A DNA stretch of 27,923 bases from an uncultured Bacteroidales bacterium. Its GTDB lineage: Bacteria > Bacteroidota > Bacteroidia > Bacteroidales > UBA932. Shown here in pieces: positions 3,062-16,971 of this stretch. The notes beneath the pieces are model-generated. The model saw only the letters and a program-made list of their open reading frames with translations, ran no database searches and had not been told where the DNA came from. The position numbers were made by a program, and so were the translations under genes. Every line of letters starts with the position of its first letter. Position 1 is the stretch's first letter. Location of the stretch: positions 1 through 27,923 of the forward strand of contig CAMOGR010000233.1 of NCBI GenBank assembly GCA_946614205.1. The letters are read 5' to 3'.

Positions 3062-5155
3062 ATGAAAGAATACACTACCAAAGACGTACGCAACGTAGTC
3101 CTTCTCGGCGCCACCAAGTCCGGCAAGACTACGCTCGCCGAGGCTATGCTCTTCGAGGGAAAGGTCATCCCCCGCATGGGTACTATCGAGGACAAGAACA
3201 CCCTGTCCGACAGCAACGAGCTGGAGAAGCTCAACCAGCGTTCCATCTATGCAACCCCCCTGTACGCTGAGTACCAGGGCTGCAAGATCAACTTCATCGA
3301 CGCTCCCGGTTCCGACGACTTCATCGGCGGAGCCTATTCTGCTTTCCGCGTATGCGAGAGCGGTGTGCTTCTCGTCAACGCACAGCAGGGCGTAGAGGTC
3401 GGAACCGATGCATTTGTCCGCCGCGCAGAGGAGCAGAAACTCCCCATGATCATTGCGGTCAGCCAGCTCGACGCCGACAAGGCCGACTGGGACAACGTTC
3501 AGAACTCCCTCAAGGAGACCTTCGGCGGCAAGATGGTGAACGTCCAGTTCCCCGACGCCACCGGAGCTGCATTCGGCGGCATCATCGACGTCCTCACCAT
3601 GAAGTACTACAAGGGCGGCGAGGTTCTCGACATCCCCGCACAGTTCGCCGACCAGGCCGAGGAATACCGCCAGGAACTCATCGAGAAGGCTGCCGAGTTC
3701 GACGACGCCCTCATGGAGAAGTTCTTCGAGGAAGGCACCCTCAGCGAGGAGGAAATCCACGGTGGTCTCAATAAAGGTATCGTCAGCGGTGATGTCTATC
3801 CCGTCTTCTGCGTCTGTGGCAAGAAGGACGTCGGCGTCGGCCGCCTCCTCGAGTTCATCCGCGACGTGGCACCCGCACCTGCAGTCAAGGAGGACGGCCC
3901 CACTTCCATCTTCATCTACAAGAACGACGTCGAGCAGCACCTCGGAGAGGTTTCCTACTTCAAGGTGATGAGCGGCACCCTCACCGCAGGCATGGACCTC
4001 GAGGATCCCGTCTCCGGCGGCAAGGACCGTCTGAGCGCCATCTACGCCGTTGCCGGTTCCAAGAAGGAGTCCGTCACCAGCCTCCACGCCGGTGACTTCG
4101 GCTGCGCCGTCAAGCTCAAGAACAGCAAGTCCAGCACCACTCTCGCCGCTCCAGGTTCAGACATCGTCTACGACCGCATCCAGTATCCCGCTCCCAAGTA
4201 CCGCTGCGCCATCAAGGCCAAGGTCCAGCAGGACGACCAGAAGCTCGGCGACGCCCTCAAGAAGATTTCTTCCCAGGATCCCACCGTGGTCGTGGAGTAC
4301 TCCAAGGAGCTCCGCCAGACCATCCTCAGCGGCAACGGCGAGCAGCACATCAACATCGTCAAGTGGCGTCTGAACAACGAGTTCGGCCTCGAGGTCGAGC
4401 TCTTCGCCCCCAAGGTTCCCTACCGTGAGACCATCACCAAGGTCGCATGCGCGCAGTACCGTCACAAGAAGCAGTCCGGCGGCGCCGGCCAGTTCGGTGA
4501 GGTTCACCTCCTCGTCTGCCCTGCAGAGGGTGAGCTCAACACCAAGTTCATGATCAACGGCAAGGAGACCCAGCTGAACATCAAGACCCAGGATATCACC
4601 GAGCTCGAATGGGGCGGCAAACTGGAGTTCTACAACTGCGTCGTCGGCGGTTCCATCGACCTCGGCTTCATGCCCGCCATCCTCAAGGGTATCAAGGAGA
4701 GAATGGTCGAGGGTCCTCTTACCGGTTCCTACGCCCGCGACATCCGCGTCTTCGTGTACGACGGCAAGATGCACCCTGTCGATTCCAAGGAAATCGCCTT
4801 CATCATCGCCGGCCGCAACGCATTCAGGGAGGCCTTCCGCAACGCCGGACCCAAGATTCTCGAGCCTATCTACAACGTCGAGGTCATGACCCCGAGCGAG
4901 TATCAGGGCGCCGTCATGAGCGACCTGCAGAACCGCCGCGGCATGCTGGGCGACATGGGCGCAGACAAGGGCTTCGCCATCCTCAAGGCCCGCGTGCCTC
5001 TGGCAGAGCTCTACCGCTACTCCACCACCCTGAGCTCCCTCACCGCAGGAAGCGCCACCTTCACCATGGAGTTCGCCGACTACCAGCCGGTTCCCGGAGA
5101 TGTCCAGACCAAGCTCCTCGCAGACTACGCTGCCCAGGAGAAGGACGAAGACTAA
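3062..5155 (+). CDS. EF-G family translational GTPase paralog (EF-G2-like) with altered GTPase motifs
   Basis: 697 residues, full length for EF-G, with GTPase, EF-Tu domain-2-like and EF-G domains III-V. The P-loop is GATKSGKTT (16-24). The switch II motif is DAPGS (80-84), whereas canonical EF-G has DTPGH: the catalytic His is Ser here. The guanine-recognition motif NKxD is SQLD (134-137). Domain IV/V sequences such as GGAGQFGEV and NRRGMLGDMG are well preserved, so ribosome binding is likely retained. Bacteroides thetaiotaomicron has an EF-G2 reported to support translation without GTPase activity under carbon starvation; this protein fits that class, by inference. It has its own promoter and probable operator, and ends at a hairpin terminator. 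It is unlikely to be the main EF-G (fusA) or the tetracycline-resistance TetQ/TetM type. Confidence 0.92.
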   Translation: MKEYTTKDVRNVVLLGATKSGKTTLAEAMLFEGKVIPRMGTIEDKNTLSDSNELEKLNQRSIYATPLYAEYQGCKINFIDAPGSDDFIGGAYSAFRVCESGVLLVNAQQGVEVGTDAFVRRAEEQKLPMIIAVSQLDADKADWDNVQNSLKETFGGKMVNVQFPDATGAAFGGIIDVLTMKYYKGGEVLDIPAQFADQAEEYRQELIEKAAEFDDALMEKFFEEGTLSEEEIHGGLNKGIVSGDVYPVFCVCGKKDVGVGRLLEFIRDVAPAPAVKEDGPTSIFIYKNDVEQHLGEVSYFKVMSGTLTAGMDLEDPVSGGKDRLSAIYAVAGSKKESVTSLHAGDFGCAVKLKNSKSSTTLAAPGSDIVYDRIQYPAPKYRCAIKAKVQQDDQKLGDALKKISSQDPTVVVEYSKELRQTILSGNGEQHINIVKWRLNNEFGLEVELFAPKVPYRETITKVACAQYRHKKQSGGAGQFGEVHLLVCPAEGELNTKFMINGKETQLNIKTQDITELEWGGKLEFYNCVVGGSIDLGFMPAILKGIKERMVEGPLTGSYARDIRVFVYDGKMHPVDSKEIAFIIAGRNAFREAFRNAGPKILEPIYNVEVMTPSEYQGAVMSDLQNRRGMLGDMGADKGFAILKARVPLAELYRYSTTLSSLTAGSATFTMEFADYQPVPGDVQTKLLADYAAQEKDED

Positions 5156-5178
5156 TCCTTTTGAATACCATAAAGCAG

Positions 5179-5206
5179 CCGGGCCGCCCAGAAATGGACG
5201 GCCCGG
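5179..5206. terminator. Bidirectional hairpin terminator
   Basis: CCGGGCCG (5179-5186) and CGGCCCGG (5199-5206) form a perfect 8-bp GC stem with a 12-nt loop, extendable by two pairs past one mismatch. It lies between the convergent EF-G paralog and serpin genes. The T-run is weak on either side, so termination may be partly Rho-dependent. Confidence 0.7.
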
Positions 5207-5230
5207 TGTCGTTGTATGCGGAGCGCAGGT

Positions 5231-6532
5231 CTATTTGCCTGTGTACGCGCCCTCGAAGAGGATGGTGCCTGAGGTTTCTTCTCCTATGATGAAGACGAAC
5301 GGGTGGTCGGCATAGAAATAGACCCTCTTGGGCTCTTCCTGGGGCGGGCCCGGGGCCGTTTCTCCGGCCATCTGCACCACCGTTACGGCCGCGGCTTCGG
5401 TACCCCATTCCGCAACGGAAATCTTGGCTTTCTGGATGACGTTCTCTATCCAGAAGTACCAGCCTTCTTCCGAGGCGGTGAACATCTTGTCGAACTCTGC
5501 CTGACCGCGCTTGAATGCCTTTTTGACGCCAAGCCGGGCAAGGGATTCGGAGAGGTCGAACTTGTTCTCGATGTCGAATTTTGGGAGCTTGACGTAGACT
5601 TCGGCGTCTGACTTGAAGGAGGCGAGTATGTCGCTCCATGCCGTGCTGCCGAGTTTGTCGACGAGGTTTTTGAGGTCGTTGCCGTCGGGAAGGAGTATGT
5701 ACATGCGGAACTTGCCGCCGGCGTAGGGAAGCGACAGGACGCGGTAGCCGTCCATCTCTGCGTACTGGTGGTAACGCATGTTGTTCATGTACTTGACCAT
5801 TATGTCCGAGCCGTCGGAACGGGTGAACCTGTCTTTCTTGGTGGCAAGTTCTTCAAACATGGGATCGTATTCACTGCCGGACCATTTGGCTTTGAAATAC
5901 AGGGCGTTGAGAAGGAATGCGGCGGCGTCGGGAGAGATGTCCGAGGCGTCCAGCACGTTGTCGATGAATCCGTCGGTATTGCGTGACGCCCACCTGTTGA
6001 CGCGGGACGCTATGGTGCCCGGGGATGTGAAGGCCATGTTCTCGACGGCGGCGTAATAGTTTTCCTCTATGGTTTTCTTGAAGTCGGGGTAGAGGGTGAA
6101 TACGTCGTTGACCAGCATGGCGTCGGTGAGCTTGAGCGTTACGTCCAGGTCTACTGCCGGGAGCTGCTCAAGCATCTTCTTGCTGTATGCGTTGAGGGCG
6201 TCGATGCCCTCGCTGCCGAAGCCCAGGAAGTCTGTGATTTCCTGGAGGGTTTCGCCGCTGGCGCCGTTGGCGGTCATGGCCAGGGCGTACTGCAGGCTGA
6301 GGGGAGAGATTACGAGGTTGCTGCCGTCGAACATGTCGCCGAGAAAGCGGAAAGCCATCTGGTTGCCGGCGTTCACGTATCCTTGCTCGGTCTCGTTCAG
6401 GGCGACTTTGGTGATTTGTTCCGTGGGCACAGGGAACTTGACGGAAAAACTGCCGTCGGGGTTGTCTATGCTGAAATACTCGCATCCTGCAAGCAGTGAG
6501 AGGGCGGAAAAGAAGATGAAAAGTTTTTTCAT
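5231..6532 (-). CDS. Serpin lipoprotein (serine protease inhibitor)
   Basis: 433 residues. Lipobox LLAGC with lipidated C17, so it is anchored in a membrane and probably surface-exposed. The serpin fold (about 50-433) is recognisable by ISPLSLQYALAMTANGA, the shutter strand LLNALYFKAKW and the C-terminal HPFVFII. The reactive-centre hinge EWGTEAAAVT (375-384) matches the inhibitory consensus (Gly at P15, Thr at P14, small residues P12-P10), so it should be a working suicide inhibitor rather than a storage serpin. By counting from P17, P1 falls near E391 (MAG-E-T), but the loop is longer than in mammalian serpins and the scissile bond could instead be near M388. Promoter at 6554-6583. A likely role is protection against host or competitor proteases. 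Confidence 0.94.
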   Translation of the reverse strand: MKKLFIFFSALSLLAGCEYFSIDNPDGSFSVKFPVPTEQITKVALNETEQGYVNAGNQMAFRFLGDMFDGSNLVISPLSLQYALAMTANGASGETLQEITDFLGFGSEGIDALNAYSKKMLEQLPAVDLDVTLKLTDAMLVNDVFTLYPDFKKTIEENYYAAVENMAFTSPGTIASRVNRWASRNTDGFIDNVLDASDISPDAAAFLLNALYFKAKWSGSEYDPMFEELATKKDRFTRSDGSDIMVKYMNNMRYHQYAEMDGYRVLSLPYAGGKFRMYILLPDGNDLKNLVDKLGSTAWSDILASFKSDAEVYVKLPKFDIENKFDLSESLARLGVKKAFKRGQAEFDKMFTASEEGWYFWIENVIQKAKISVAEWGTEAAAVTVVQMAGETAPGPPQEEPKRVYFYADHPFVFIIGEETSGTILFEGAYTGK

Positions 6533-6553
6533 ATCACGAAAAATATGGATTGG

Positions 6554-6583
6554 TAAAGATACTCATTTATCAATATAATCCAA
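6554..6583 (-). promoter_or_regulatory. Promoter of the serpin gene
   Basis: On the minus strand: TTG (6583-6581), 19-nt spacer, TATCTTTA (6561-6554), seven of eight matches to TAnnTTTG, followed by the ATG 21 nt downstream of the box. It is divergent from the promoter of the fusion gene in the same 109-bp gap. Confidence 0.55.
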
Positions 6584-6625
6584 GAGCCCGGGTATTCTTG
6601 CACGACAGGTATGGATAATAATTCG

Positions 6626-6633
6626 TATCTTTG
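6626..6633 (+). promoter_or_regulatory. -7 box of the S51/ATP-grasp fusion gene, near-leaderless arrangement
   Basis: TATCTTTG is a perfect TAnnTTTG and ends only 8 nt before the ATG at 6642. With the usual start distance the message would begin at or within a few bases of the ATG. The nearest TTG (6598-6600) is 25 nt upstream, longer than normal. Confidence 0.5.
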
Positions 6634-6641
6634 CATCCCGT

Positions 6642-8552
6642 ATGACGTTGATCCTTACAGGAAGCCCCACCCGTTACGGCGAGGACAGGTTTACGGAAGA
6701 CAATGGCTTTCTCGCCACCGTCAAGGCCGAACTGCCTCCCAGGCCCCGCATACTCATGATAAGCGCCGCCCCCGACGACCGCGCCTTTACCGCCAGCGTA
6801 CTGGAGGGCATGACCACCTGCGTGCTCAATTCCGGCATCAAACCCTCAAAGATAGTCATGCTCGACCGCCGCAACGCCGGCAGGGCCGCGGAGCTCATCG
6901 CCCGCGCCGACTGGGTCGTCCTGTGCGGCGGGCACGTCCCCACACAGAACCGCTTCATCCACGAAATCGGCCTCCGGGCGCTCCTGGAGGGCTTCGGCGG
7001 CCTGGTGATGGGCTGCAGCGCCGGCAGCATGAACTGCGCGGACGTAGTGTATTCCCATCCCGAACTTGACGGCGAGGCGCAGGACCCGGGCTACAGCCGC
7101 TGGCTCCGCGGCCTCGGCCTCACGCACATCCGCATCATCCCTCATTACTATCAGGTAAGGGATTATGTGATAGACGGCCGCAGGCTTTTCGAGGACGTCA
7201 TATTTCCCGACAGTTTCAATCATTCCTTCTACACTTTCCCCGACGGCGGATACATCGTCTGCAAGGACGGCCGCAGCACCCTGCACGGCACCGCCTGGGA
7301 GATAGCAAACGGGAGGATGCGTCAGATATGTAGTGAAAATCAAGTGTATACCTTTATGAACGTCGTTTTCATTTCCCCCCATTTCCCGCAGACCTACAGT
7401 CACTTCTGCGCCGGCCTCAAGGCCGACGGCGTGAACGTGCTGGGCATTGCGGATGCGCCTCACGGCTCGCTTGCACCCGAGCTCAGGGACGCCCTTACCG
7501 ATTATTACCAGGTACGCAACCTCGAGGACTACGACGAGGTCTACCGCGCCGTGGCATGGTTCGCCCACCGTTACGGACGCATCGACTGGATTGAGTCCAA
7601 CAACGAATACTGGCTTGAGCAGGATGCTCGCCTTCGGACCGACTTCAACGTAACCACCGGCATCCATACCGACCGTATCGACTTCATCAAGGAAAAGTCC
7701 GAGATGAAGAAGTGCTACGCCGCCGGAGGCATTCCCACGGCCCGTCAGATCAAGGCCTCCGAGGGCCTGAAGGCCGTTCTAGCTTTCGCCGGCAAGACCG
7801 GATATCCCATCATTGCCAAGCCCGACAACGGCGTCGGCGCAAGCGGCACCTACAAGCTCTGCAGCGACGAGGAACTCCGCAGCTGGTTCTCGGAGCACGG
7901 ATCCGACTACGGCGCATTCGTCGTCGAAGAGTTCATCACAGGTCTGCTGACATCCTACGATGCGATATACAATTCCAAGGGAGAGCCCCTCTTCGAGTCG
8001 ATGGGAGTGTATCCCACGCCCATCATGGACATCGTTCACGGCAACCTCGACGCTTGTTATTACATAGAGCGCGACGTCCCCGCTGCGCTTGCCAGAATCG
8101 GCCGCCGCACCGTAAAGGCTTTCGGCATCACCAGCCGCTTTGTGCATCTGGAGTTCTTCAAGCTCGACCGCGACCGCGAAGGTCTTGGCAAGAAGGGCGA
8201 TTTCGTAGGACTCGAAGTCAACATGCGTCCCGCAGGAGGATATACTCCGGACATGATGAACTTCGCCCACAGCACCGACGTCTATCAGATTTGGGCTGAC
8301 ATGGTGGCCTTCGACGAGAGGCATAAGGATGCCGGGGAGCAGTACTGGTGCGCCTATGCAAGCCGCAGGGACTCACACCGTTATGTGCATTCGCACGACG
8401 AAGTGCTTGCCCGCTGGGGCTCGGTCATCTGCATGTGTACCCGCATGCCGGACGCCCTTTCCGACGCCCTCGGCAATCAGGTCTACATCGCCCGCCTGAG
8501 CTCGAAGAAGGAAATAGAACCGTTCTTCAAATTTGTCTGCGAGCAGGCTTAG
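6642..8552 (+). CDS. Fusion of S51 peptidase (dipeptidase E/cyanophycinase-like) and ATP-grasp ligase
   Basis: 636 residues in one uninterrupted frame. Residues 1-about 232 form an S51 hydrolase: GGHVPTQN (96-103), nucleophile S126 in GCSAGSMN, candidate His H168 in IIPHYY. Residues 239-636 form a complete ATP-grasp enzyme, beginning MNVVFISPHFPQTYSHFC exactly like stand-alone members: K393 in IAKPDNGVGASG, VVEEF (427-431), E504 in HLEFF, and the Mg-binding EVNMR (525-529). ATP-grasp enzymes join a carboxylate to an amine using ATP; S51 enzymes cut Asp-containing dipeptides or cyanophycin-like polymers. The likely logic is a make-and-break pair for a small amide or peptide, but the substrate is unknown. 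Each half has normal full length with only about 6 linker residues, so the fusion looks recent. No signal peptide: cytoplasmic. Confidence 0.9.
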   Translation: MTLILTGSPTRYGEDRFTEDNGFLATVKAELPPRPRILMISAAPDDRAFTASVLEGMTTCVLNSGIKPSKIVMLDRRNAGRAAELIARADWVVLCGGHVPTQNRFIHEIGLRALLEGFGGLVMGCSAGSMNCADVVYSHPELDGEAQDPGYSRWLRGLGLTHIRIIPHYYQVRDYVIDGRRLFEDVIFPDSFNHSFYTFPDGGYIVCKDGRSTLHGTAWEIANGRMRQICSENQVYTFMNVVFISPHFPQTYSHFCAGLKADGVNVLGIADAPHGSLAPELRDALTDYYQVRNLEDYDEVYRAVAWFAHRYGRIDWIESNNEYWLEQDARLRTDFNVTTGIHTDRIDFIKEKSEMKKCYAAGGIPTARQIKASEGLKAVLAFAGKTGYPIIAKPDNGVGASGTYKLCSDEELRSWFSEHGSDYGAFVVEEFITGLLTSYDAIYNSKGEPLFESMGVYPTPIMDIVHGNLDACYYIERDVPAALARIGRRTVKAFGITSRFVHLEFFKLDRDREGLGKKGDFVGLEVNMRPAGGYTPDMMNFAHSTDVYQIWADMVAFDERHKDAGEQYWCAYASRRDSHRYVHSHDEVLARWGSVICMCTRMPDALSDALGNQVYIARLSSKKEIEPFFKFVCEQA

Positions 8553-8573: not shown

Positions 8574-8708
8574 TCAGAACTGAACCGGGTCTTCGACTAC
8601 TATGTCTTCGATTCCTTCGCCGTCCCATGAAGAGCCGGAGAGAAGGCTCATAAGCAGCCTGCTCTCCAGCAGTGTCATGTCGGGTTCGTAATAATGAAGC
8701 TTAATCAT
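8574..8708 (-). CDS. Operon-embedded mini-protein C, 44 residues
   Basis: Begins MIKLHYYEPDM and ends VVEDPVQF. Its ATG shares bases with the TGA of the DUF5107/TPR gene (ATGA, 8708-8705), strong evidence of translation by coupling. It carries Y6-x2-P9-D10, then 11 residues, then LLSGSS (22-27), matching the Y-x2-P-D-x10-L-L-x2-S-[SN] pattern of mini-proteins A and B further up the same operon; the tail is acidic as in those. No signal peptide, membrane helix or known domain. Last gene of the operon, ending 21 bp before the convergent fusion gene's stop. Function unknown; short Bacteroidales proteins of this general look sit near surface-protein genes, but I know no role for them. Confidence 0.72.
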   Translation of the reverse strand: MIKLHYYEPDMTLLESRLLMSLLSGSSWDGEGIEDIVVEDPVQF

Positions 8709-11700
8709 TTCAGCAGTTCATTTGCCCATAAATGATCTGGCTTTAGTGACTGAACCTTGTGTAGCAAACGGCGGGCCTTTGCCTTGTGGCCGAGTCCCAT
8801 CTCACCCAGAGCCTGGGTAAAATAAGCAGCAGAGTTTTTTGCTTCTACAGTTGATCCAGTGGTTCCTTCGGCGCCGTAGAAGTTGATATATTCTGTAATT
8901 ATTGAGCCCTTGCCTTCGGAGACCATAGTCTTGAAGATGTCGCGTGCTTCTGCCTTTTTGCCAAGTTTTACGAGAGCAAGGCCGGTCCAGTAACGGAAAT
9001 CCTTGCTGCCCTTGAGGTTGAAGTCCTGATTGGCAGCGAGTTCATAATACTCGCGTGCTTTTCCTTCGTCTCCGAGCTTTTCGTATGCCAGGCCCAGCTC
9101 GTAATTAATCTGGGCGTCGTGCGTTGCGCGCTCGTTCACAAGGAAAACCTGATGATTCTCGGGGTATTCGAAGGCTTTGTTATACAGAGTAATGGCACCA
9201 TCAATATCTCCTTCTGCCATCTTTTTCCTTCCTGCAAGAATGCAAGCATCCACAAAATTGTCGTGGAAGTTGGCGACACCCTCACGAGTCGGGAAATAGC
9301 AGTTGTTGAGGAGGTCGAGGACATAGTCATAGTCGCCCTCGTAAGTGCCAAGGATTACTTCCTGAGCAAGAGGATAGTAGCGTTTGACTCCTGTGTCGTG
9401 ATGCGATTTAAGCAACTGGTAGCGCTCGCTCACCGGAGCCTGGAGGGCTTCCATCGCCTGGTCGCACTCTTCGAGATACAGAGGGGCAGGGTTGATGTCG
9501 ATAGCTTTCTTGTAGCACTTTGCGGCCTCTGCATAATCCTTGGTGTGCAGCCAGTTGGCCCATCCGAGATTACGCCATGCCAGATCGTCCCCGGGATTCA
9601 TCTCCACACACTTCCGCCACTCCGCCATCGCATTGTCAGGCTGGATGTTATACAGAAGGTTTCCAAGATAGTAATACGGCCTTTCGCTGTCTGGGCAAGC
9701 CTTCTTGGCCTGCTGCAGCACGTCTATGGTTTCCAGCCGGAAAGGTGCGCAGTAACCCACAGGGAGGTCGAGCGCCTCGCGGTAGAGGGCGTCGTTTCCG
9801 GTGAGATATGCGATATACATCTTTACGGTAGGGTAAGCGACCCTCACGTCGATATCCTTTAAAAGGGTCAGCGCCCTGTCCTTGAAGCCGTTGTGCAGGT
9901 AAAGGAGAGCAAGCTCGAGATAGCTTTCCGGCTGCTCCCGCATGAACTTGTGGAAATCAACAACCGAAGCAGTTTCGCACAGCGCCATCGCGTTGACGGG
10001 ATCTGCTTCAAGGACAGTTTTGAAGCAAGCGTCGGCCTCTGCGGAACGTCCGAGCTTGCGCAGCACCAACCCTTTGAAATCAAGAGCCTGGTAATTGCGG
10101 CCATTGTAGGCAATTGCCTCTTCCAGGCGGTCGAGCGCCATCTCCCAGTCACCCTTCTGCGCGTACATCTGGGCCAGCTGGGTATTCGCTCCGGAGTTGT
10201 AAGTATAGTTCCAGGTGGCACGGTACAGCGTATCCATGGCTGCATCGTACTTGCCCTGAGCCTTCAGGACGAGGCCGAGATTGTAAATGGCTTCGGCATC
10301 CTTGGGCCTGGTGTAGTCCTTAGTCTGGCGGCGTATAGCGGCGCGCAGGTAAGATGCCGCCTTGTCGTATTCGCCCCTTTTGCGGTACCATACTCCCATC
10401 TGGGTGTTGGCACGCGTGTCTCCCGGATCACGGCGCAGCACCTCAAGGAAATAGTCGGTAGGATCGATGAAAGGATTGTGGAACTGGAGGTTGCGCAGGC
10501 CTACCAGAAAGCACTCCTCGGTATTCTGAATGTCCTGGGGCTTCTTGGGGCGCTCGACGATGGGAGGCAGCGGGGATGTGGGATCCTTGACTACCGGAGT
10601 ATAACTGAGCATCTGCTTGCCGTTGCCGTCGCAAAGCACCATGGTCAGTTCGTGTTCCTGCACGCCGGCTTCCACGGGAACGGTCTTCACGTAAGGCTTG
10701 CCAGGGTCGATGTAAGCAATCACATCTTCGAATACGGGTTTGCCTGCGCGCATCAGGGATACGCGGAGCCCCTTCATCTTTTCGGTTGCATTCACTCCCA
10801 GAAGTACCTGGTTCCCATCCTGGAGGTCCATGTTGATGGCTGCGTGACGGTTTCCCGCTTTGACACCTTCTATGTCACGGAGGGCATACCAGTACTGGCT
10901 GAAGGTCTTGGTCTCGTAGGGGAAGTTCCAGTTGTAGTCGGGCTGGTTGTCAGAATAGGCGCCCACCATCAGCTCGATGTAGTGGCCGCTGTTGTCGGTC
11001 AGGATCTTGGTGTCCCACTCACTGTTGGGACCCCATAGCCAGAACTTGCCGCCCTTGATGATGTTGTGGTTGCCGGTCAGCATGGTGCCGGCGTGGCGTC
11101 CGTGGTCGTAACCGCCGACGAAATCAGCCTTCTGGTCATACACGAACATGGAGTTGCTCATGTAGTGATTCTTCCACCAGCTTGCATCGACGCCGTCTTT
11201 GTAGAAATCCATTCCGTTGAAGGGTTCGTGCGTTATTGGCCAGTGTGCAAACCAATTCTTGCAGTGGAAGGTCACGAATTCGGTACTCTGGGGAAGGCAG
11301 ATTTCGTAGTTCTCGTCCACGAGCGTGGAGACGTTGGACCAGTAGAGTATGGAGTTGTTGTCGGGAGTGCCGTTCATGAGGCGTCCGCTGATTTCCATGT
11401 AGCTCTTTCCAGGATGCAGCGTGATGCCGATGGCCCACTGCATGCGGTGGCGGTATTCAGTCTCGCCCAACCAGATGGTCTTGGAACCGTCGGGGCTCGT
11501 GGTTATCTGCCAGTCACAGGGGATATGGCTGGTCTGGCGGTGATGGTGGAACACGTTCCACTCCACGCCTCCGCTTATCCAGGCGCCGGTCATGCCAACG
11601 TTGGCGGGTTTGACCACATGGTTGTGGTAGAAAATATCGTATCCGTTTGTCTTGTCGATGGCATACATCAGGCGTCCTCCTATCTCGGGAATTACGCAGA

Positions 11701-11968
11701 GTTCCACATACTCGTTCTCCATGTACAGGCAGTCATAAGTGACGTCCTGGCGGTTGCGGGTCATGTTATCGTTGAGCGGATACGGATAGACGCTTCTCTT
11801 GGCGCGCTGGTAACTCCAGTCGCGCTCGAAGATGGGCGCCTGCTCTGCCGGGTCGAGCAGATAGGTGGGAAGAGTAATCTTGCCTTCGTAAGCTTTGACT
11901 CCCTGAGCCTTTGCACAGAAAGGCAAAAGTAAGGCCAGAGCCAGTACAATCAATACTGTTTTTTTCAT
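8705..11968 (-). CDS. DUF5107 domain protein with C-terminal tetratricopeptide repeats, secreted
   Basis: 1087 residues. Type I signal peptide with likely cleavage after AKA (21) before Q22; no lipobox. Residues about 45-370 are DUF5107-like: VELCVIPEIGGRLMYAIDK (88-106) and WISGGVEWNVFHHHR (130-144) recall the galactose-mutarotase/aldose-epimerase beta-sandwich seen in many glycan-active proteins. Residues about 370-480 look like a beta-rich linker domain. From about 520 to the end are TPR helices (for example AEAIYNLGLVLKAQGKYDAA and DDLAWRNLGWANWLHTKDYAEAAKCYKKA). Probably a periplasmic or surface glycan-binding or -cleaving protein with a scaffold tail; catalytic activity cannot be assigned. 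It lies 12 nt after the GLUG lipoprotein gene and overlaps mini-protein C by ATGA. Confidence 0.9.
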   Translation of the reverse strand: MKKTVLIVLALALLLPFCAKAQGVKAYEGKITLPTYLLDPAEQAPIFERDWSYQRAKRSVYPYPLNDNMTRNRQDVTYDCLYMENEYVELCVIPEIGGRLMYAIDKTNGYDIFYHNHVVKPANVGMTGAWISGGVEWNVFHHHRQTSHIPCDWQITTSPDGSKTIWLGETEYRHRMQWAIGITLHPGKSYMEISGRLMNGTPDNNSILYWSNVSTLVDENYEICLPQSTEFVTFHCKNWFAHWPITHEPFNGMDFYKDGVDASWWKNHYMSNSMFVYDQKADFVGGYDHGRHAGTMLTGNHNIIKGGKFWLWGPNSEWDTKILTDNSGHYIELMVGAYSDNQPDYNWNFPYETKTFSQYWYALRDIEGVKAGNRHAAINMDLQDGNQVLLGVNATEKMKGLRVSLMRAGKPVFEDVIAYIDPGKPYVKTVPVEAGVQEHELTMVLCDGNGKQMLSYTPVVKDPTSPLPPIVERPKKPQDIQNTEECFLVGLRNLQFHNPFIDPTDYFLEVLRRDPGDTRANTQMGVWYRKRGEYDKAASYLRAAIRRQTKDYTRPKDAEAIYNLGLVLKAQGKYDAAMDTLYRATWNYTYNSGANTQLAQMYAQKGDWEMALDRLEEAIAYNGRNYQALDFKGLVLRKLGRSAEADACFKTVLEADPVNAMALCETASVVDFHKFMREQPESYLELALLYLHNGFKDRALTLLKDIDVRVAYPTVKMYIAYLTGNDALYREALDLPVGYCAPFRLETIDVLQQAKKACPDSERPYYYLGNLLYNIQPDNAMAEWRKCVEMNPGDDLAWRNLGWANWLHTKDYAEAAKCYKKAIDINPAPLYLEECDQAMEALQAPVSERYQLLKSHHDTGVKRYYPLAQEVILGTYEGDYDYVLDLLNNCYFPTREGVANFHDNFVDACILAGRKKMAEGDIDGAITLYNKAFEYPENHQVFLVNERATHDAQINYELGLAYEKLGDEGKAREYYELAANQDFNLKGSKDFRYWTGLALVKLGKKAEARDIFKTMVSEGKGSIITEYINFYGAEGTTGSTVEAKNSAAYFTQALGEMGLGHKAKARRLLHKVQSLKPDHLWANELLK

Positions 11969-11980
11969 AGTCTGGATATG

Positions 11981-14260
11981 TTAATACCAGTTCACTTCCG
12001 ACATGTCAGGTGTGAATTTAGATGCAGTGGGGTATGATGAGACGCTAAAATTCTTGAAGTTGGAAGAATTCACGCCAAGCGAGGAAGCGTCCACGGAAAT
12101 GGAACCTCCGGCCTTGCAGGATGCAATGGATGCGGAAGTTACTACGTTTCCGACGAGCAGGCCCGGCATGCAATGGCGCTTCGTTTCACCCTTGAAGCCC
12201 TGGAAGATATCGATGGCAGGTTTGGCGTTGCAGCCGTCCAGAGACACGTCAGCTATAGCAAAGGCCACTATTCCGCCTGCGGCGCCCACGGCGTAGGTCC
12301 CGGTTGATTTAAGGCTGCTTTCAGACGTGCAGGAAGAGAATGCCGTCGCATTTGCGAGACCGGCGATTCCGCCGAGGCAAGTTGAATTCACATCCAGGGC
12401 AGTCCACCCACCTTCTATCGTACCGGTATTGGAGCACCCGGAAACGGTTGAAATATTGGAGCCCTTTCCGATGATAGCACCCACGATACCGGCGGCGAAG
12501 TCTCCGCGGGCTCCGGATCCGTTGTTGGTTACACCACCGCTGTGGCGACAGAAAACTTTGATGGTTCCGCTGTTGGAGCAGTTGAGTATCTGAGTGTTGT
12601 ACCCGTTGACACCGCCGTTGTCAAGCGCTCCGCTATCACCGGGAGAGGTCGTGTACCAAGAGCAACTGCGGCCTAATATTCCGCCGACGGTTGCAGCCTT
12701 GTTGGAAGAACCTTCACCATTGGATATGCGGCTGACGTCACCTGTATTGATGCATCCGTCAAAGACCACACCGTTCATGTAAACCTGTCCACAGATGCCA
12801 CCAACAGCGTTTTTAATCGCGAAAGAGGAACCTGCTCCTTCAATGTATATTTTGCCATGGTTCTCGCAGCCTTGGAACGTGCCTGGACAGCATTCCTCGT
12901 CCACGTCGATGATGGTTGCGGTGGAACCACCCTTGATTATATGGCCAACGGCAGCGATACCGCCACCATAAAGACCCGAATTGCCGGAAGGTGTGTGATG
13001 TATCGTGATGTCGCCATAGTTCTTGCAGTTTTTGATGGTGCCGCCGTTCTGGGCGCAGATGGTGCCGAAAATAACTCCTCCGCCTAAAGTAAGTTCGGTG
13101 CCGGAGTAATTGACGCAGTTTTCTATAAGCCCGTAATTCCTTTTTGCAATTGTAGCGTTACCCACTTCGGCCGGGTTTGCAAGAGAAGTGAATGATCCGT
13201 CTACGGTGACATTTTTTACTACTCCGTCAAGACCGATTTCAGAAAACAGCGGCCACATGTTGCCGTTTGCGGTGAGCTTGTGCCCATTACCGTCGAATGT
13301 GCCGTTGAACACACCCTTTGCGTATGCAAAGTAAGTTGCAACGTTAAGGTCTTTCATAAGTGTGAGAGTCTTGCCTGCAAAATCATCGCCTTCGGAGATC
13401 GCGTCTGCAACGGCAGTCCAATCGGCAATGGTGTATATACCCCCGTCGATAAGAGTTCCTGTAGGCGCGAACGTGATATTTGTCGGATAGATGACACCGG
13501 GCTCAGCGGTGAACTCTTTGCTGGAGGTTAGTATCTGATAGTGGTTCTTGACATCCTTGATACGTATGCTGAGTCCCTGCGTATACACTTTTGCCGGGAT
13601 TGCCACGATGACGGGCTCGCCAAGTGGTGCGCCGGAGCCACAGTCGACTACGATTGAATTGCCGTTGAACCTGTCTTCAACTATGGCACAGGTCTCAGGA
13701 TTGAATGTAAACGTACCGCTGAGGTTCTCGCTTGCCGTCGCACTCACTTGTATCTCGGCGATGGGGTCGCTATCAGTACTGCTTGTAATGACAAACTTGA
13801 GGTACGACATTGCGTGCTTGAAGGCAATGCCTTTCCCTTCTTCCTCCTGTATGCCGACCATGATTGCAGCGGCCGGATCAAAGGAGCCTTTGACCCAGGT
13901 CTGGTTCCCGGGTACGGTTATGCGGCCATATGCGCCATTGTCCGGGTCGAAAGATGCATTGACATATGCAGATGCGGGATAAATGCCATAATAAGGAGCA
14001 TCGATTATGGGGAATGAAAAATACGCGGCTTTTCCACCTGCAAGTATTTCTATGCCCGTTGACGTCTCACCGTTGACGACTACTGCGTCATCATTGTTCC
14101 AGGAGCAAATAAGACCGTCAAGAGAGGTCTTGGAATCAGATGCGATGGTCGCTTCCAGCCTGACGGTGCCTGACGGTGCTATATTCTGTTCTATCTTCTT
14201 TTCGCAGGAGACAAGTGCTGCGGTCAGGATAAGTCCTGCAATAATCACATTGTTTTTCAT
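11981..14260 (-). CDS. Lipoprotein with fimbrillin-like N-domain and GLUG-type beta-solenoid repeats
   Basis: 759 residues from the ATG at 14260; the frame also opens three codons earlier at a TTG, which is less likely. Lipobox ALVSC, lipidated C19. Residues about 25-270 are a fimbrillin (Mfa-like) domain with TSLDGLICSWNNDDAVVVNG and LIDAPYYGIYPASAY, ending at PTGTLIDGG; this is a close paralog of the N-domain of the SGNH lipoprotein upstream. Residues about 320-700 are repeats of the form GGIxG..-xxxCxNxGxI (for example VSGCSNTGTIEG, ILNCSNSGTIKV), which resemble GLUG repeats of surface adhesins and should fold as a beta-solenoid. Cysteine is unusually frequent in the repeats. Likely a surface binding protein; no catalytic motif seen. 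Located 13 nt after mini-protein B. Confidence 0.88.
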   Translation of the reverse strand: MKNNVIIAGLILTAALVSCEKKIEQNIAPSGTVRLEATIASDSKTSLDGLICSWNNDDAVVVNGETSTGIEILAGGKAAYFSFPIIDAPYYGIYPASAYVNASFDPDNGAYGRITVPGNQTWVKGSFDPAAAIMVGIQEEEGKGIAFKHAMSYLKFVITSSTDSDPIAEIQVSATASENLSGTFTFNPETCAIVEDRFNGNSIVVDCGSGAPLGEPVIVAIPAKVYTQGLSIRIKDVKNHYQILTSSKEFTAEPGVIYPTNITFAPTGTLIDGGIYTIADWTAVADAISEGDDFAGKTLTLMKDLNVATYFAYAKGVFNGTFDGNGHKLTANGNMWPLFSEIGLDGVVKNVTVDGSFTSLANPAEVGNATIAKRNYGLIENCVNYSGTELTLGGGVIFGTICAQNGGTIKNCKNYGDITIHHTPSGNSGLYGGGIAAVGHIIKGGSTATIIDVDEECCPGTFQGCENHGKIYIEGAGSSFAIKNAVGGICGQVYMNGVVFDGCINTGDVSRISNGEGSSNKAATVGGILGRSCSWYTTSPGDSGALDNGGVNGYNTQILNCSNSGTIKVFCRHSGGVTNNGSGARGDFAAGIVGAIIGKGSNISTVSGCSNTGTIEGGWTALDVNSTCLGGIAGLANATAFSSCTSESSLKSTGTYAVGAAGGIVAFAIADVSLDGCNAKPAIDIFQGFKGETKRHCMPGLLVGNVVTSASIASCKAGGSISVDASSLGVNSSNFKNFSVSSYPTASKFTPDMSEVNWY

Positions 14261-14273
14261 AACCAGCAAATAA

Positions 14274-14411
14274 TTAGATCCAGTCGAAATTATCTTCCCC
14301 TTCAGTAAGGTCGGGAAGAGTATTGGATTGACAGAGGAGAGTTTCCTCCTCTCCGATGGACCAGACTGTGTCCGGAGTTACATAGAAATGTGCAATTGTT
14401 TTTGTTTTCAT
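14274..14411 (-). CDS. Operon-embedded mini-protein B, 45 residues
   Basis: ATG at 14411, TAA at 14274-14276. It begins MKTKTIAHFYVTPDTVW and ends EGEDNFDWI. It aligns to mini-protein A without gaps, about 22 of 45 residues identical, including YxxPDTVW, LLCQS, and EGxxxFxW. It lies 18 nt after A and 13 nt before the GLUG lipoprotein gene. No signal peptide, no membrane segment, one cysteine, acidic second half. Function unknown. The conserved spacing, the tandem paralogy and a tight place in an operon argue for a real gene. Confidence 0.78.
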   Translation of the reverse strand: MKTKTIAHFYVTPDTVWSIGEEETLLCQSNTLPDLTEGEDNFDWI

Positions 14412-14429
14412 ATGCGGTCTTCTTTTACA

Positions 14430-14567
14430 TTAATTCCATTCAAAGTCATGCTGACCCTCATCAAGACCGGGGACAGTTGACGATTGGCACAGAAGTTCAA
14501 CTTCCTGTACAGCATACCAAACAGTATCTGGATTGCTATAGAGCTGTTTGAGCGTGTTCTTTTTCAT
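14430..14567 (-). CDS. Operon-embedded mini-protein A, 45 residues
   Basis: ATG at 14567, TAA at 14430-14432. It begins MKKNTLKQLYSNPDTVW and ends LDEGQHDFEWN. Same layout as mini-protein B: basic N-terminus, Y10-x2-P13-D14-T-V-W, LLCQSS (25-30), then an acidic tail ending F-x-W. The start lies 13 nt after the stop of the SGNH lipoprotein gene. Without it and B, the 320-bp gap between the two large lipoprotein genes would hold nothing. Function unknown; no modification enzyme or dedicated exporter is seen nearby. Confidence 0.78.
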   Translation of the reverse strand: MKKNTLKQLYSNPDTVWYAVQEVELLCQSSTVPGLDEGQHDFEWN

Positions 14568-14580
14568 ATCTGTTCAGCTG

Positions 14581-16971
14581 TTAATCGTAAATCATGGAGA
14601 AACTCAGGCTCTGGTCCCCGGTAAAGTAAAATGCGCAGGAATAAGCTCCGCTTGCGACATTCGGCGAAGGGCGCTGTACGGCGCCTGAATCGGAGGCCTG
14701 TATGCTTCCGTCGGCGCAGCGCAGACGGAAACGCAGGAAACCGTTCTGGATTCCGTGCTCGAAGGTGCAGTCTGCACTGATGGCGGAATTGCCGTATCCG
14801 ATGGCGAAGGTTGCATCATGCTTGAACGCTCCGTCCCAGGTGGAACACTCGCTGCTGTTGTGTTTCCATTCGTCTCCGTCAAGATAATCCAGATACCAGA
14901 AGCACGGGCCCTGGCGGGTGTAGAAGGGTGCGCTGAAGCGTATTGTGGATCCTTCCTTGAAATTCTTGACGGGAATAACGAACTCGAAATAATCCCCGGT
15001 CCAGATGGCGTTCAGCGTGATCGAGTATCCGCCGGAGGTATAGAAGCCTCTGCTGTAAATCAAGTTATCGACGGGCCTGCTGACGCTCACCCACTTGGCG
15101 AAGGCCTGCGGCTGTGCCGAGAACCAGATTCCGAGAGGGTTCCAGAGGAATTGGCATCCTATCCCTCCCCAGTCGCTGAGCGTGAAGCGTACAGGGAAAG
15201 CGACAGGCTTGACATCAACACCCTTGTCATTCAGACAGACGCTGCCCGGATTGTCAGCATAATCAGGAACTCCGGTATAGGAACTGAGGTCGGTGATGTG
15301 GTAGGGGTCGCTATATGCGGCGTTGACGGCGGCCAGAACGGCTGCCCGGTTGTCGTCCGTGAAAGGAGTGGTATATCTGTCGGGATAAGGATAAAACTCC
15401 GTGAAACGGAATGTTACTTCTTCGGGAGCTATGCCCGTAAGAGGCGTGATGAGCGTCTTCCAGATAAGCAGAGACGCCGCGGCGCGAGGCATTCCGTAGT
15501 CCAGATGGATATGGTCTCCGCGGCAAAGGTCATCGGGATGAACGGCGTTCAGACCGGTCGTGCGGAGATTCTGCAGCAGAGCACCGGTAGAAATGATACG
15601 CTTGAAAGGATAGCCCTCAGCAGGATCCATTACATGGGATGAATTCTCGCGGACCACGGTCTCGAACTGCGTTACATTGCTTCCGCCGAACTTGCTCTTG
15701 ATGGTCTCGTGATACTTCGACCAGCAATGGGACTGGAAATATATGAATTCTGCATCGGGGCTCGTAACTCTCAGTTTTTCAATCAGCCCGTGAATTGCAT
15801 TTTTCTCGGTATCGCTCCAGGTCCAGGCATGCTCGCCTCCGGAATACTCCTGCAGGACGATGATGTCGAAAGGACCGGTCGCCGCTATGTCCTGGAGAGA
15901 ATAATCGAGGTCGATGCTCCCGTTCCAGAAACGCTGTCCGGGAGTCCAGGTACACAGAGCTGCGTTTTTGGCCTTGTCGAAGTTGTTGTTGTATCCGACC
16001 AGATAGTATCCTCCGTGATAACTTCTCGTAAGTTCCACGTTGCGGACCCCTTCGTGATTCAGCATGAGAGGCAAAAGGTCGGTTGCGTCTAGTGTATGGC
16101 TGTTGCCGACGAACAGGATTCTGGTCTTTTTGCCTGAATCAGAACCCGGAGCCTCGCCGTCTATCAGGGTCCCGGTGGGATTGAATTCTATGCCGGTTTC
16201 GTAGATCTTGCCCGCCTCTGCAGTAAACTGCCTGGCAGACTTGATTACCTGATAGTGATTCTTGATGTCCTTGATTCTCATGGAGATGCCTGTTTGGTAC
16301 GTCCGGGCCGGCAAAGCTATTACGATGGGTGCACCCTGTGCAGCCCCTGCGCCGCAGGAGACGGTAATCTGCTTGCCGTTTTTTTCGTTGCCAGTAAGGC
16401 TGAGGCTCGAAGGGTCAAAGCTGAATTCACCGCTCAAGTCCTCGCCGGAATTGGCCCAGACGCTGATTTCTGCGATTGCATGGTTGTCGGAACCGCCGTT
16501 TACAGTCAGGCGGATATAAGACATGGCATGGACGAAATCCAGGCTGGAACCGGCCTCGGAGGCCGCCACCATGATCGCAGAAGAGGGATCAAAAGAGCCG
16601 GAGACATAAGACTGGGTCTCGGGAACTGTCACGGTACCGTAACGGCCTGATGCCGGAGCATAGGAACCGGCTTTGTACGCAGAGGCCGGATAGACTGCAT
16701 GGTACGGGGCATCGATAAGCGGGAGGGTAAAACGCGCCTTTTTTCCCGATTCAAGTATTTCGATGCCGGTGGAGGCCTTTCCGTTGACTGCGATGGCATC
16801 ACCGTCCGACCAAGTGCAGGTCAGACCGTCCAGAGCAGTACGGCTGCCGGCATAAAAGCCGGCCTCCAGTACGGTCGCGCTCTCTTGAACCTTTTCGGGT
16901 TCCACCGGTTTCTGGCATGCGGCCAACAGGCAGGGGAGCAAAATACTTGTCAACATTTGATATCTGATCAT
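14581..16971 (-). CDS. Lipoprotein: fimbrillin-like N-domain, SGNH (DUF4886-like) hydrolase, C-terminal beta domain
   Basis: 796 residues. Lipobox LLAAC, lipidated C19. Residues about 30-270 are a fimbrillin-like domain (TALDGLTCTWSDGDAIAVNG, ending NPTGTLIDG). Residues about 284-510 are an SGNH-type hydrolase: nucleophile S291 in ILFVGNSHT and the block V pair D486 and H489 in GDHIHLDYG, so the active site looks intact. Such enzymes are often esterases that remove acetyl or other acyl groups from glycans. Residues about 590-796 are a beta-rich module that recurs in the partial gene at the right window edge. The ATG shares bases with the previous gene's TGA (ATGA at 16971-16968). Likely a surface carbohydrate esterase; substrate unknown. 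Confidence 0.9.
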   Translation of the reverse strand: MIRYQMLTSILLPCLLAACQKPVEPEKVQESATVLEAGFYAGSRTALDGLTCTWSDGDAIAVNGKASTGIEILESGKKARFTLPLIDAPYHAVYPASAYKAGSYAPASGRYGTVTVPETQSYVSGSFDPSSAIMVAASEAGSSLDFVHAMSYIRLTVNGGSDNHAIAEISVWANSGEDLSGEFSFDPSSLSLTGNEKNGKQITVSCGAGAAQGAPIVIALPARTYQTGISMRIKDIKNHYQVIKSARQFTAEAGKIYETGIEFNPTGTLIDGEAPGSDSGKKTRILFVGNSHTLDATDLLPLMLNHEGVRNVELTRSYHGGYYLVGYNNNFDKAKNAALCTWTPGQRFWNGSIDLDYSLQDIAATGPFDIIVLQEYSGGEHAWTWSDTEKNAIHGLIEKLRVTSPDAEFIYFQSHCWSKYHETIKSKFGGSNVTQFETVVRENSSHVMDPAEGYPFKRIISTGALLQNLRTTGLNAVHPDDLCRGDHIHLDYGMPRAAASLLIWKTLITPLTGIAPEEVTFRFTEFYPYPDRYTTPFTDDNRAAVLAAVNAAYSDPYHITDLSSYTGVPDYADNPGSVCLNDKGVDVKPVAFPVRFTLSDWGGIGCQFLWNPLGIWFSAQPQAFAKWVSVSRPVDNLIYSRGFYTSGGYSITLNAIWTGDYFEFVIPVKNFKEGSTIRFSAPFYTRQGPCFWYLDYLDGDEWKHNSSECSTWDGAFKHDATFAIGYGNSAISADCTFEHGIQNGFLRFRLRCADGSIQASDSGAVQRPSPNVASGAYSCAFYFTGDQSLSFSMIYD

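Follow-up and report, generated by a model that had tools for sequence, protein, structure and literature searches.

What are the very short genes that lie around the large surface-protein genes of a Bacteroidales operon? The question is raised by the window analyzed here, a stretch of 27,923 nucleotides (contig CAMOGR010000233.1, assembly GCA_946614205.1) from an uncultured Bacteroidales bacterium. Its operon contains SusC/SusD, BNR and fimbrillin-like genes, and the term polysaccharide utilization locus (PUL) used in the initial annotation is a fair label. That annotation drew attention to three short open reading frames (ORFs), here called A, B and C, and offered three roles for the encoded mini-proteins: chaperone-like partners of the neighboring lipoproteins, regulatory peptides, or precursors of a processed peptide. 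We favor the last of these; the other two fit less well. In our reading A, B and C are precursors of a ribosomally synthesized and post-translationally modified peptide (RiPP) system resembling that of the linear polyphosphorylated peptides (LPPs). They would be dispersed, and matured in trans by a gene cluster elsewhere in the genome. We put the probability of this at roughly two in three. It is favored because the mini-proteins have a characteristic layout of YxxP and serine, because a cluster encoding a kinase, a peptidase, a RiPP recognition element (RRE) and an ATP-binding cassette (ABC) transporter co-occurs with them, and because in two genomes the mini-proteins are encoded inside that cluster.

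Three small genes under purifying selection

Mini-proteins A (45 aa, 14430-14567), B (45 aa, 14274-14411) and C (44 aa, 8574-8708) are all encoded on the minus strand, as first annotated, and the pattern Y-x2-P-D-x(10,11)-L-L-x2-S-[SN] can be read in each. In A the predicted RRE-binding leader motif is Y10-x2-P13, followed by C27-Q28-S29 and an acidic tail; B has the same features at the same positions. C has Y6-x2-P9, then LLSGSS, which places a Ser 17 residues after the Pro (+17), and again an acidic tail. A and B are identical at 22 of 45 positions in an ungapped alignment. C is more diverged and gives no BLAST alignment to either, yet it is recovered by a held-out family profile. With a profile of 63 other members, from which C and its ortholog were both held out, these score 19.5 and 15.3 bits respectively, while the best reversed-sequence control reaches 9.9. 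When held out, A, B and their orthologs score 31.7-42.7 bits, and the best reversed control 11.2. None of the three has a known domain (no Pfam family at E 0.1, no NCBIfam family at E 1). A protein-database search with A and B returned eight entries including B itself; two are called 'hypothetical protein' and the rest are nameless.

The small genes are as tightly spaced with their large neighbors as the initial annotation had it. A starts 13 nt after the upstream fimbrillin-like lipoprotein gene (14581-16971, minus strand). Downstream of A and B comes another fimbrillin-like lipoprotein gene (11981-14260, minus strand; lipobox ...LVSC), and the stop of B lies 13 nt before its ATG at 14260; the listed start of that gene at 14269 is a TTG, and the ATG was taken instead. 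C has a 4-nt overlap with the DUF5107/TPR protein gene upstream of it (8705-11968, minus strand).

The nearest relative found is locus L001, from the metagenome-assembled genome of a water-deer rumen Bacteroidales, and it is the only locus that came from a contig scan of genomes. The gene order is the same, and the three orthologs are in place at L001:9847-9984 (A), 10001-10138 (B) and 15704-15838 (C), without insertions, deletions or frameshifts. The proteins are 68.9 % (A), 73.3 % (B) and 70.5 % (C) identical to those of L001, and the seven neighboring genes that were compared are 83-96 % identical. The ratio of nonsynonymous to synonymous change (pN/pS) is not near 1, but 0.22 (0.14-0.37) for A, 0.27 (0.14-0.48) for B and 0.23 (0.10-0.37) for C, with Fisher p = 2.5e-8, 1.0e-5 and 2.1e-11 respectively. 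Synonymous change (pS) is 0.75, 0.60 and 0.90 for A, B and C, compared with 0.37-0.73 in the seven neighbors; A and C exceed all seven, and B all but one. The in-place, ungapped conservation and the low pN/pS indicate that A, B and C are translated and that their protein sequences are constrained. They are real genes under strong purifying selection that evolve faster than their neighbors. Spurious ORFs are ruled out by the conservation in place, the purifying selection and the absence of matches among reversed controls.

A family coupled to surface-protein genes

A, B and C belong to a large unnamed family of gut and rumen Bacteroidales, with members at many other loci. Its traits are Y-x2-P, a Ser 15-17 residues past the Pro, often within [IL][IL]-C-x-S, and an acidic tail. 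With a profile built from 17 diverse members, G001, the genome of L001, shows 18 matches at E 0.1, and with one built from 33 members (A6) it shows 26 at E 0.001. At 18 bits or more there were 62 ORFs in 42 loci, and no reversed ORF reached 10 bits; these loci amount to 770 kb, come from the window and six genomes, and were selected mainly for their mini-protein matches, and A6 was built from 33 of the same 62 ORFs, hence the separate hold-out tests. Later counts refer to 65 members at 10 bits or more, of which L160 and L161 are identical; L069:4454 was dropped as a chance match. In all 65, [YFI]-x2-P is followed by a Ser that lies 15-17 residues past its Pro. Under a permissive rule in which +16 was tried first, the offset is +16 in 53 members, +17 in eight and +15 in four. 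The residue at S-2 is Cys in 46 of the 65 and that at S-1 is Gln in 22, so that C-x-S is the commonest context. The Y and P of YxxP are invariant in alignments A6, A10 and A11.

Mini-proteins were found in 44 of 61 genomes of the genus sample (E 0.001). The order sample of 198 genomes gave five positives at E 0.02, and nine at E 0.01 once Prevotella-like forms were included in the profile. In the phylum sample just one of 296 genomes was positive (E 0.001), and this was G001 itself, so A6 is specific to its clade and gives little information on wider spread. A search of PDB sequences with the mini-protein profile gave no hits, and we found no paper describing these proteins in the open-licence PMC literature. 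Structure prediction of B gave no helix or strand of note (mean predicted local distance difference test 71.5, predicted template modeling score 0.21), so the predicted mini-protein is extended and unfolded.

The tie to surface-lipoprotein genes proposed from the window turns out to be much stronger than the window alone shows. Of 65 members in one clade, 61 stand before a lipoprotein gene, which nearly always has a fimbrillin-like N-module. A script located the downstream lipoprotein start for 58 of the 65. The distance from mini-protein stop to lipoprotein start is 11-14 nt in 28 of these and between -14 and +23 nt in 55; these counts involve start-codon picking and an N-module profile built from the same genes, which is no independent test of the fimbrillin label. 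An earlier regular-expression test combining lipobox and fimbrillin signature proved overly strict, picking up 16 of 54 downstream genes and 5 of 328 others, and was replaced. Pfam calls Mfa_like_1 in just 5 of the 54 downstream genes, and the fimbrillin label also rests on a fold match. The passenger domains vary, including GLUG, LRR_5, Big_2, pectate lyase, endonuclease and others. It looks as though mini-protein and N-module form a cassette joined to different passengers.

Two other ideas were rejected. The mini-proteins are not a component of a classical fimbrial operon, since the tie is to the shared N-module while the passengers vary, and a function tied to this PUL is not supported, as members occur at many other loci.

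Other genomes have other arrangements. Most mini-proteins of G661, for example MKKTYISPKTEVVSVNLQGIIANS..., are encoded 3' of exported proteins, and all 12 C-termini read among these upstream genes are variants of YDLxGRxx...GxYIxNGKKxxxK, with L189 and L192 the loosest. We take this motif to resemble a sorting tail of the type IX secretion system (T9SS); NCBIfam made no such call in the nine scanned. The mini-protein gene of L188, also in G661, instead precedes a lipoprotein gene, as do those of G606 and G637; the G661 member at L189:7358 is placed in neither group.

Several further observations concern these loci. L167 and L175 contain repeated arrays of mini-protein, fimbrillin-like lipoprotein, mini-protein and lipoprotein genes. 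Genes with the fimbrillin N-module number at least 55 in G001, at least 61 in G526 and at least 68 in G540, a very large surface-lipoprotein repertoire for genomes of 2.5-2.7 Mb. GGAGG- or GAGG-like stretches lie between mini-protein stop and lipoprotein start at L079:3333, L160:9804, L169:6008 and L074:9831; Shine-Dalgarno sites are rarely used in Bacteroidota, so these are unusual. A scan of viral contigs with the fimbrillin gene gave nothing useful.

An RRE cluster and the case for precursors

According to two papers, YxxP is the leader motif recognized by the PqqD-like RRE proteins of lasso peptides (PMC12710340, PMC13381572). PqqD (PF05402) matches over the cut-off are present in all six mini-protein-rich genomes, compared with 3 of 14 control genomes. 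In the order sample an RRE (E 1e-5) is found in 30 of 198 genomes, and all nine mini-protein-positive genomes carry one (hypergeometric p = 1.3e-8). When the four genomes that had fed the mini-protein profile (G001, G661, G606 and G637) are removed, 5 of 5 positives have an RRE against 26 of 194 genomes (p = 3e-5). In the genus sample the RRE is present in 40 of 44 positive and 11 of 17 negative genomes (p = 0.02); with an RRE threshold of E<1e-30, set post hoc, the counts are 37 of 44 and 5 of 17 (p = 9e-5).

The neighbors of PqqD in G001, G016, G540, G517 and G661 encode an HprK-like kinase, a signal-peptidase-like protein and an ABC transporter. In five mini-protein-bearing genomes (L281, L282, L284, L285 and L342) the genes are adjacent in the order kinase, signal peptidase I (SPI)/S24-like, PqqD and ABC. 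The kinase label comes from weak TIGR04352/TIGR04249 matches and the peptidase label from weak TIGR02228/TIGR02227 or PF00717 matches, and in G540 and G517 both are based on resemblance to G001. No C39 peptidase match was found in the ABC proteins scanned. Mini-protein genes lie within the cluster in two genomes. At L327 (G570) the order is mini-protein, kinase, SPI-like, RRE, NTP_transf_5 and ABC. At L329 (G640) it is an exported protein with a T9SS sorting domain (TIGR04183, over cut-off), RRE, mini-protein, kinase, SPI-like (TIGR02228 at E 2e-12, below cut-off) and ABC. At L339 (G663) a weak mini-protein match (8.6 bits) is 3.5 kb from the RRE. These three are among five candidates from a pattern scan that reached out to 4.5 kb from each of 19 RRE sites, and we regard them as real and the other two (L330 and L336) as noise. 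The mini-proteins of L327 and L329 match no NCBIfam family at E 0.05. An NTP_transf_5 gene (PF14907, over cut-off) is beside the RRE at L327, L335, L336, L338 and L340. In G053 one ORF joins IspG to a kinase-like C-terminus, and a peptidase-like ORF and the RRE come next. At L283 an IspG-like ORF (5056-7242; 728 aa, by reading) ends in a kinase-like part and is followed immediately by the peptidase-like and RRE genes; this is either a fusion or an effect of assembly.

The model for the proposed maturation is the LPP system lppA/K/B/S/D/N of Paenibacillus alginolyticus (Nat Commun 2026, PMC13381572). Its precursor LppA has Y-16 and P-13, and a core starting A-Q-S in which S3, i.e. the Ser at +15, is phosphorylated by LppK. 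LppA is cleaved by the SPI-like LppS, which needs the RRE for cleavage in vitro. By analogy, the N-terminal half of each mini-protein would be a leader whose Y-x2-P is bound by a PqqD-type RRE protein encoded elsewhere. The HprK-like kinase of the RRE cluster would phosphorylate the near-invariant Ser in [IL][IL]-C-x-S, the signal-peptidase-like protease would cut off the leader, and the ABC transporter would export the short acidic core. The core would be ~19 residues for A and B, with predicted regions at 14433-14489 and 14277-14333 (both minus strand) that run from C27, a boundary placed by reference to LppA and the Pro-to-Ser offset of +16. A single cluster would serve many precursors scattered over the genome, most of them translated with a surface lipoprotein bearing the fimbrillin-like N-module, so that peptide and surface protein would be made together. 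RRE binding, Ser phosphorylation, leader cleavage and export of the mini-proteins are what we infer from the sequences.

A number of observations weigh against this reading. The five independent mini-protein matches in the order sample are weak (E 3.5e-4 to 0.008), one having an internal stop and one a basic tail; at E 0.01 per genome, chance alone would be expected to give about two matches in 198 genomes. The RRE is present in 21 of 189 order genomes negative for mini-proteins and missing from 4 of 44 positive genus genomes; related genomes are non-independent, shared ancestry inflates all the co-occurrence figures, and both profiles draw heavily on a single clade. The matches behind the kinase and peptidase labels fall below cut-off. 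At 14 of the 19 RRE sites, including those of G001, G016 and G540, there is no mini-protein-like ORF within 4.5 kb. In G526, with 21 mini-proteins, the RRE stands alone as the sole cluster gene recognized, no ABC gene was seen beside the RRE of G053, and there is no NTP transferase beside the clusters of the G001 and G661 type. For the window's own genome we infer the cluster from the relative G001. Of the LPP motif YxxPxVLxHQxIxFETxxS just YxxP and the Ser recur, with no HQ or FET in the alignments, and the position preceding the presumed core start usually holds Leu or Ile instead of Thr. Lastly, the Bacteroidales RRE matches LppB weakly (E 0.16) and the lasso RRE 6jx3 better (E 2.8e-4).

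Two things weaken the other roles first offered: some members are found 3' of unrelated exported proteins and within the RRE cluster, and synonymous change is high. It is unlikely that the mini-genes are cis-acting leader peptides, where translation of the small ORF couples or gates the surface-protein gene and the peptide is a by-product or nascent-chain sensor. The short distance from mini-protein stop to lipoprotein start would suit such a role. However, selection acts on the amino acids, and the high synonymous change in A, B and C gives no sign of RNA-level constraint. The conserved residues are mid-peptide rather than C-terminal, most G661 mini-proteins are encoded 3' of the partner gene, and no fimbrillin gene follows C or the member at L081:9907. 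The RRE co-occurrence and the mini-proteins inside the RRE cluster would be left unexplained.

A cytosolic partner or chaperone that binds the signal peptide or N-module of the neighboring lipoprotein before export is distinctly unlikely. The mini-proteins lack a signal peptide, many loci have one mini-protein per N-module gene, and similar mini-proteins pair with similar N-modules (Mantel r 0.14, p 0.03, weakening to p 0.10 when distant pairs are taken). Yet the partners differ by clade, being fimbrillin-like lipoproteins, exported proteins with the C-terminal motif, or the DUF5107/TPR protein, and just 14 of 29 N-module genes from outside the mini-protein-centered loci have a recognized upstream mini-protein. 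The predicted extended, unfolded state also fits such a role poorly.

That the mini-proteins are lasso-peptide precursors is very improbable: YxxP is also a lasso leader motif, the best match of the RRE profile is 6jx3, and the HprK-like kinase and NTP transferase of paeninodin-type clusters make motif and tailoring genes common to both, but the peptidase present is SPI/S24-like and there is no Asn-synthetase-type cyclase (macrolactam synthetase) or B2 peptidase among the cluster genes scanned or ten further neighbors (L327, L329, L281); for other neighbors the view covered N-terminal stretches, and no search for a cyclase extended to the rest of the genomes.

Returning to maturation in trans, a stronger form of the proposal is that one RRE/kinase/peptidase/exporter cluster matures dozens of acidic peptides, each encoded and made with its own surface protein as cognate. 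We would give this even odds. If the proposal is true, LPP-type chemistry occurs outside the Bacillota and there is a new link of RiPPs to surface architecture, with surface lipoproteins and exported proteins connected to peptide maturation. The known range of a phosphopeptide RiPP type, which PMC13381572 describes as Bacillota-restricted, would grow to include gut and rumen Bacteroidales. Unnamed ORFs of 40-60 aa, a large set, would become substrates of a defined enzyme set, and one could directly test what the kinase/SPI-like/PqqD/ABC cluster does in Bacteroidales and what LPPs do generally.

Two other genes in the window deserve mention. A serpin gene (5231-6532, minus strand; PF00079, E 1e-83) adjoins an EF-G-like gene at 3062-5155. 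An ORF of 636 aa (6642-8552, plus strand) has weak matches to Peptidase_S51 in its N-terminal and ATP-grasp_4 in its C-terminal part, and is possibly a peptidase/ligase fusion.

Comparison with known systems

Paeninodin-type lasso peptides share the PqqD-type RRE, a YxxP/WxxP leader, an HprK-like kinase acting on Ser, and the NTP transferase. They differ in that a lasso cyclase and B2 peptidase are not recognized beside the RRE here, where the peptidase is of another kind, and in that the Ser of the mini-proteins is near the predicted core N-terminus rather than the C-terminus. Fimbrillin-like lipoproteins of the Mfa_like_1 type (PF13149) and type V pilus subunits correspond to the partner genes, not the mini-proteins, and their passenger domains vary widely. 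Bacteroidetocins and other GG-leader RiPPs likewise have small precursors in Bacteroidales (PMC6671954, PMC10352776). As described, those have GG leaders and peptidase-containing transporters (PMC10352776), whereas the mini-proteins have no GG leader motif. A preprint reportedly describes a Chryseobacterium RiPP using the lipoprotein pathway, another link of RiPPs and lipoproteins in Bacteroidota with different chemistry (PMC12636315).

The closest comparison is with the LPPs. The discussion of PMC13381572 calls these 'restricted to the Bacillota', and the word stem 'bacteroid' is absent from the paper, whereas the present systems are in Bacteroidales. LPP clusters as described there contain one to three precursors, in contrast to the many genome-dispersed precursors here; at L327 and L329 the precursor is in the cluster as in LPPs, and at L339 near it. 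The mini-proteins differ too in being coupled to surface-protein genes, and the sequence of the Bacteroidales RRE is not specially close to LppB. Both systems have a YxxP leader and a variable C-terminus. The Ser is at +15 in LppA and mostly at +16, one residue further, in the mini-proteins, whose core start is presumed. Both have a discrete RRE, an HprK-like kinase, a signal-peptidase-like protease and an ABC transporter, with an NTP transferase in some genomes and no cyclase recognized. In LppB, N33 and D70 contact the Pro and Tyr respectively according to the same paper (PMC13381572). Their equivalents (construct residues 51 and 88, placed by manual count along the printed alignment) are kept in the Bacteroidales RREs, where N occurs in 15 of the 16 aligned sequences and D in every one; these represent 16 of the 19 sites and include near-identical sequences and some from genomes where mini-proteins were not detected.

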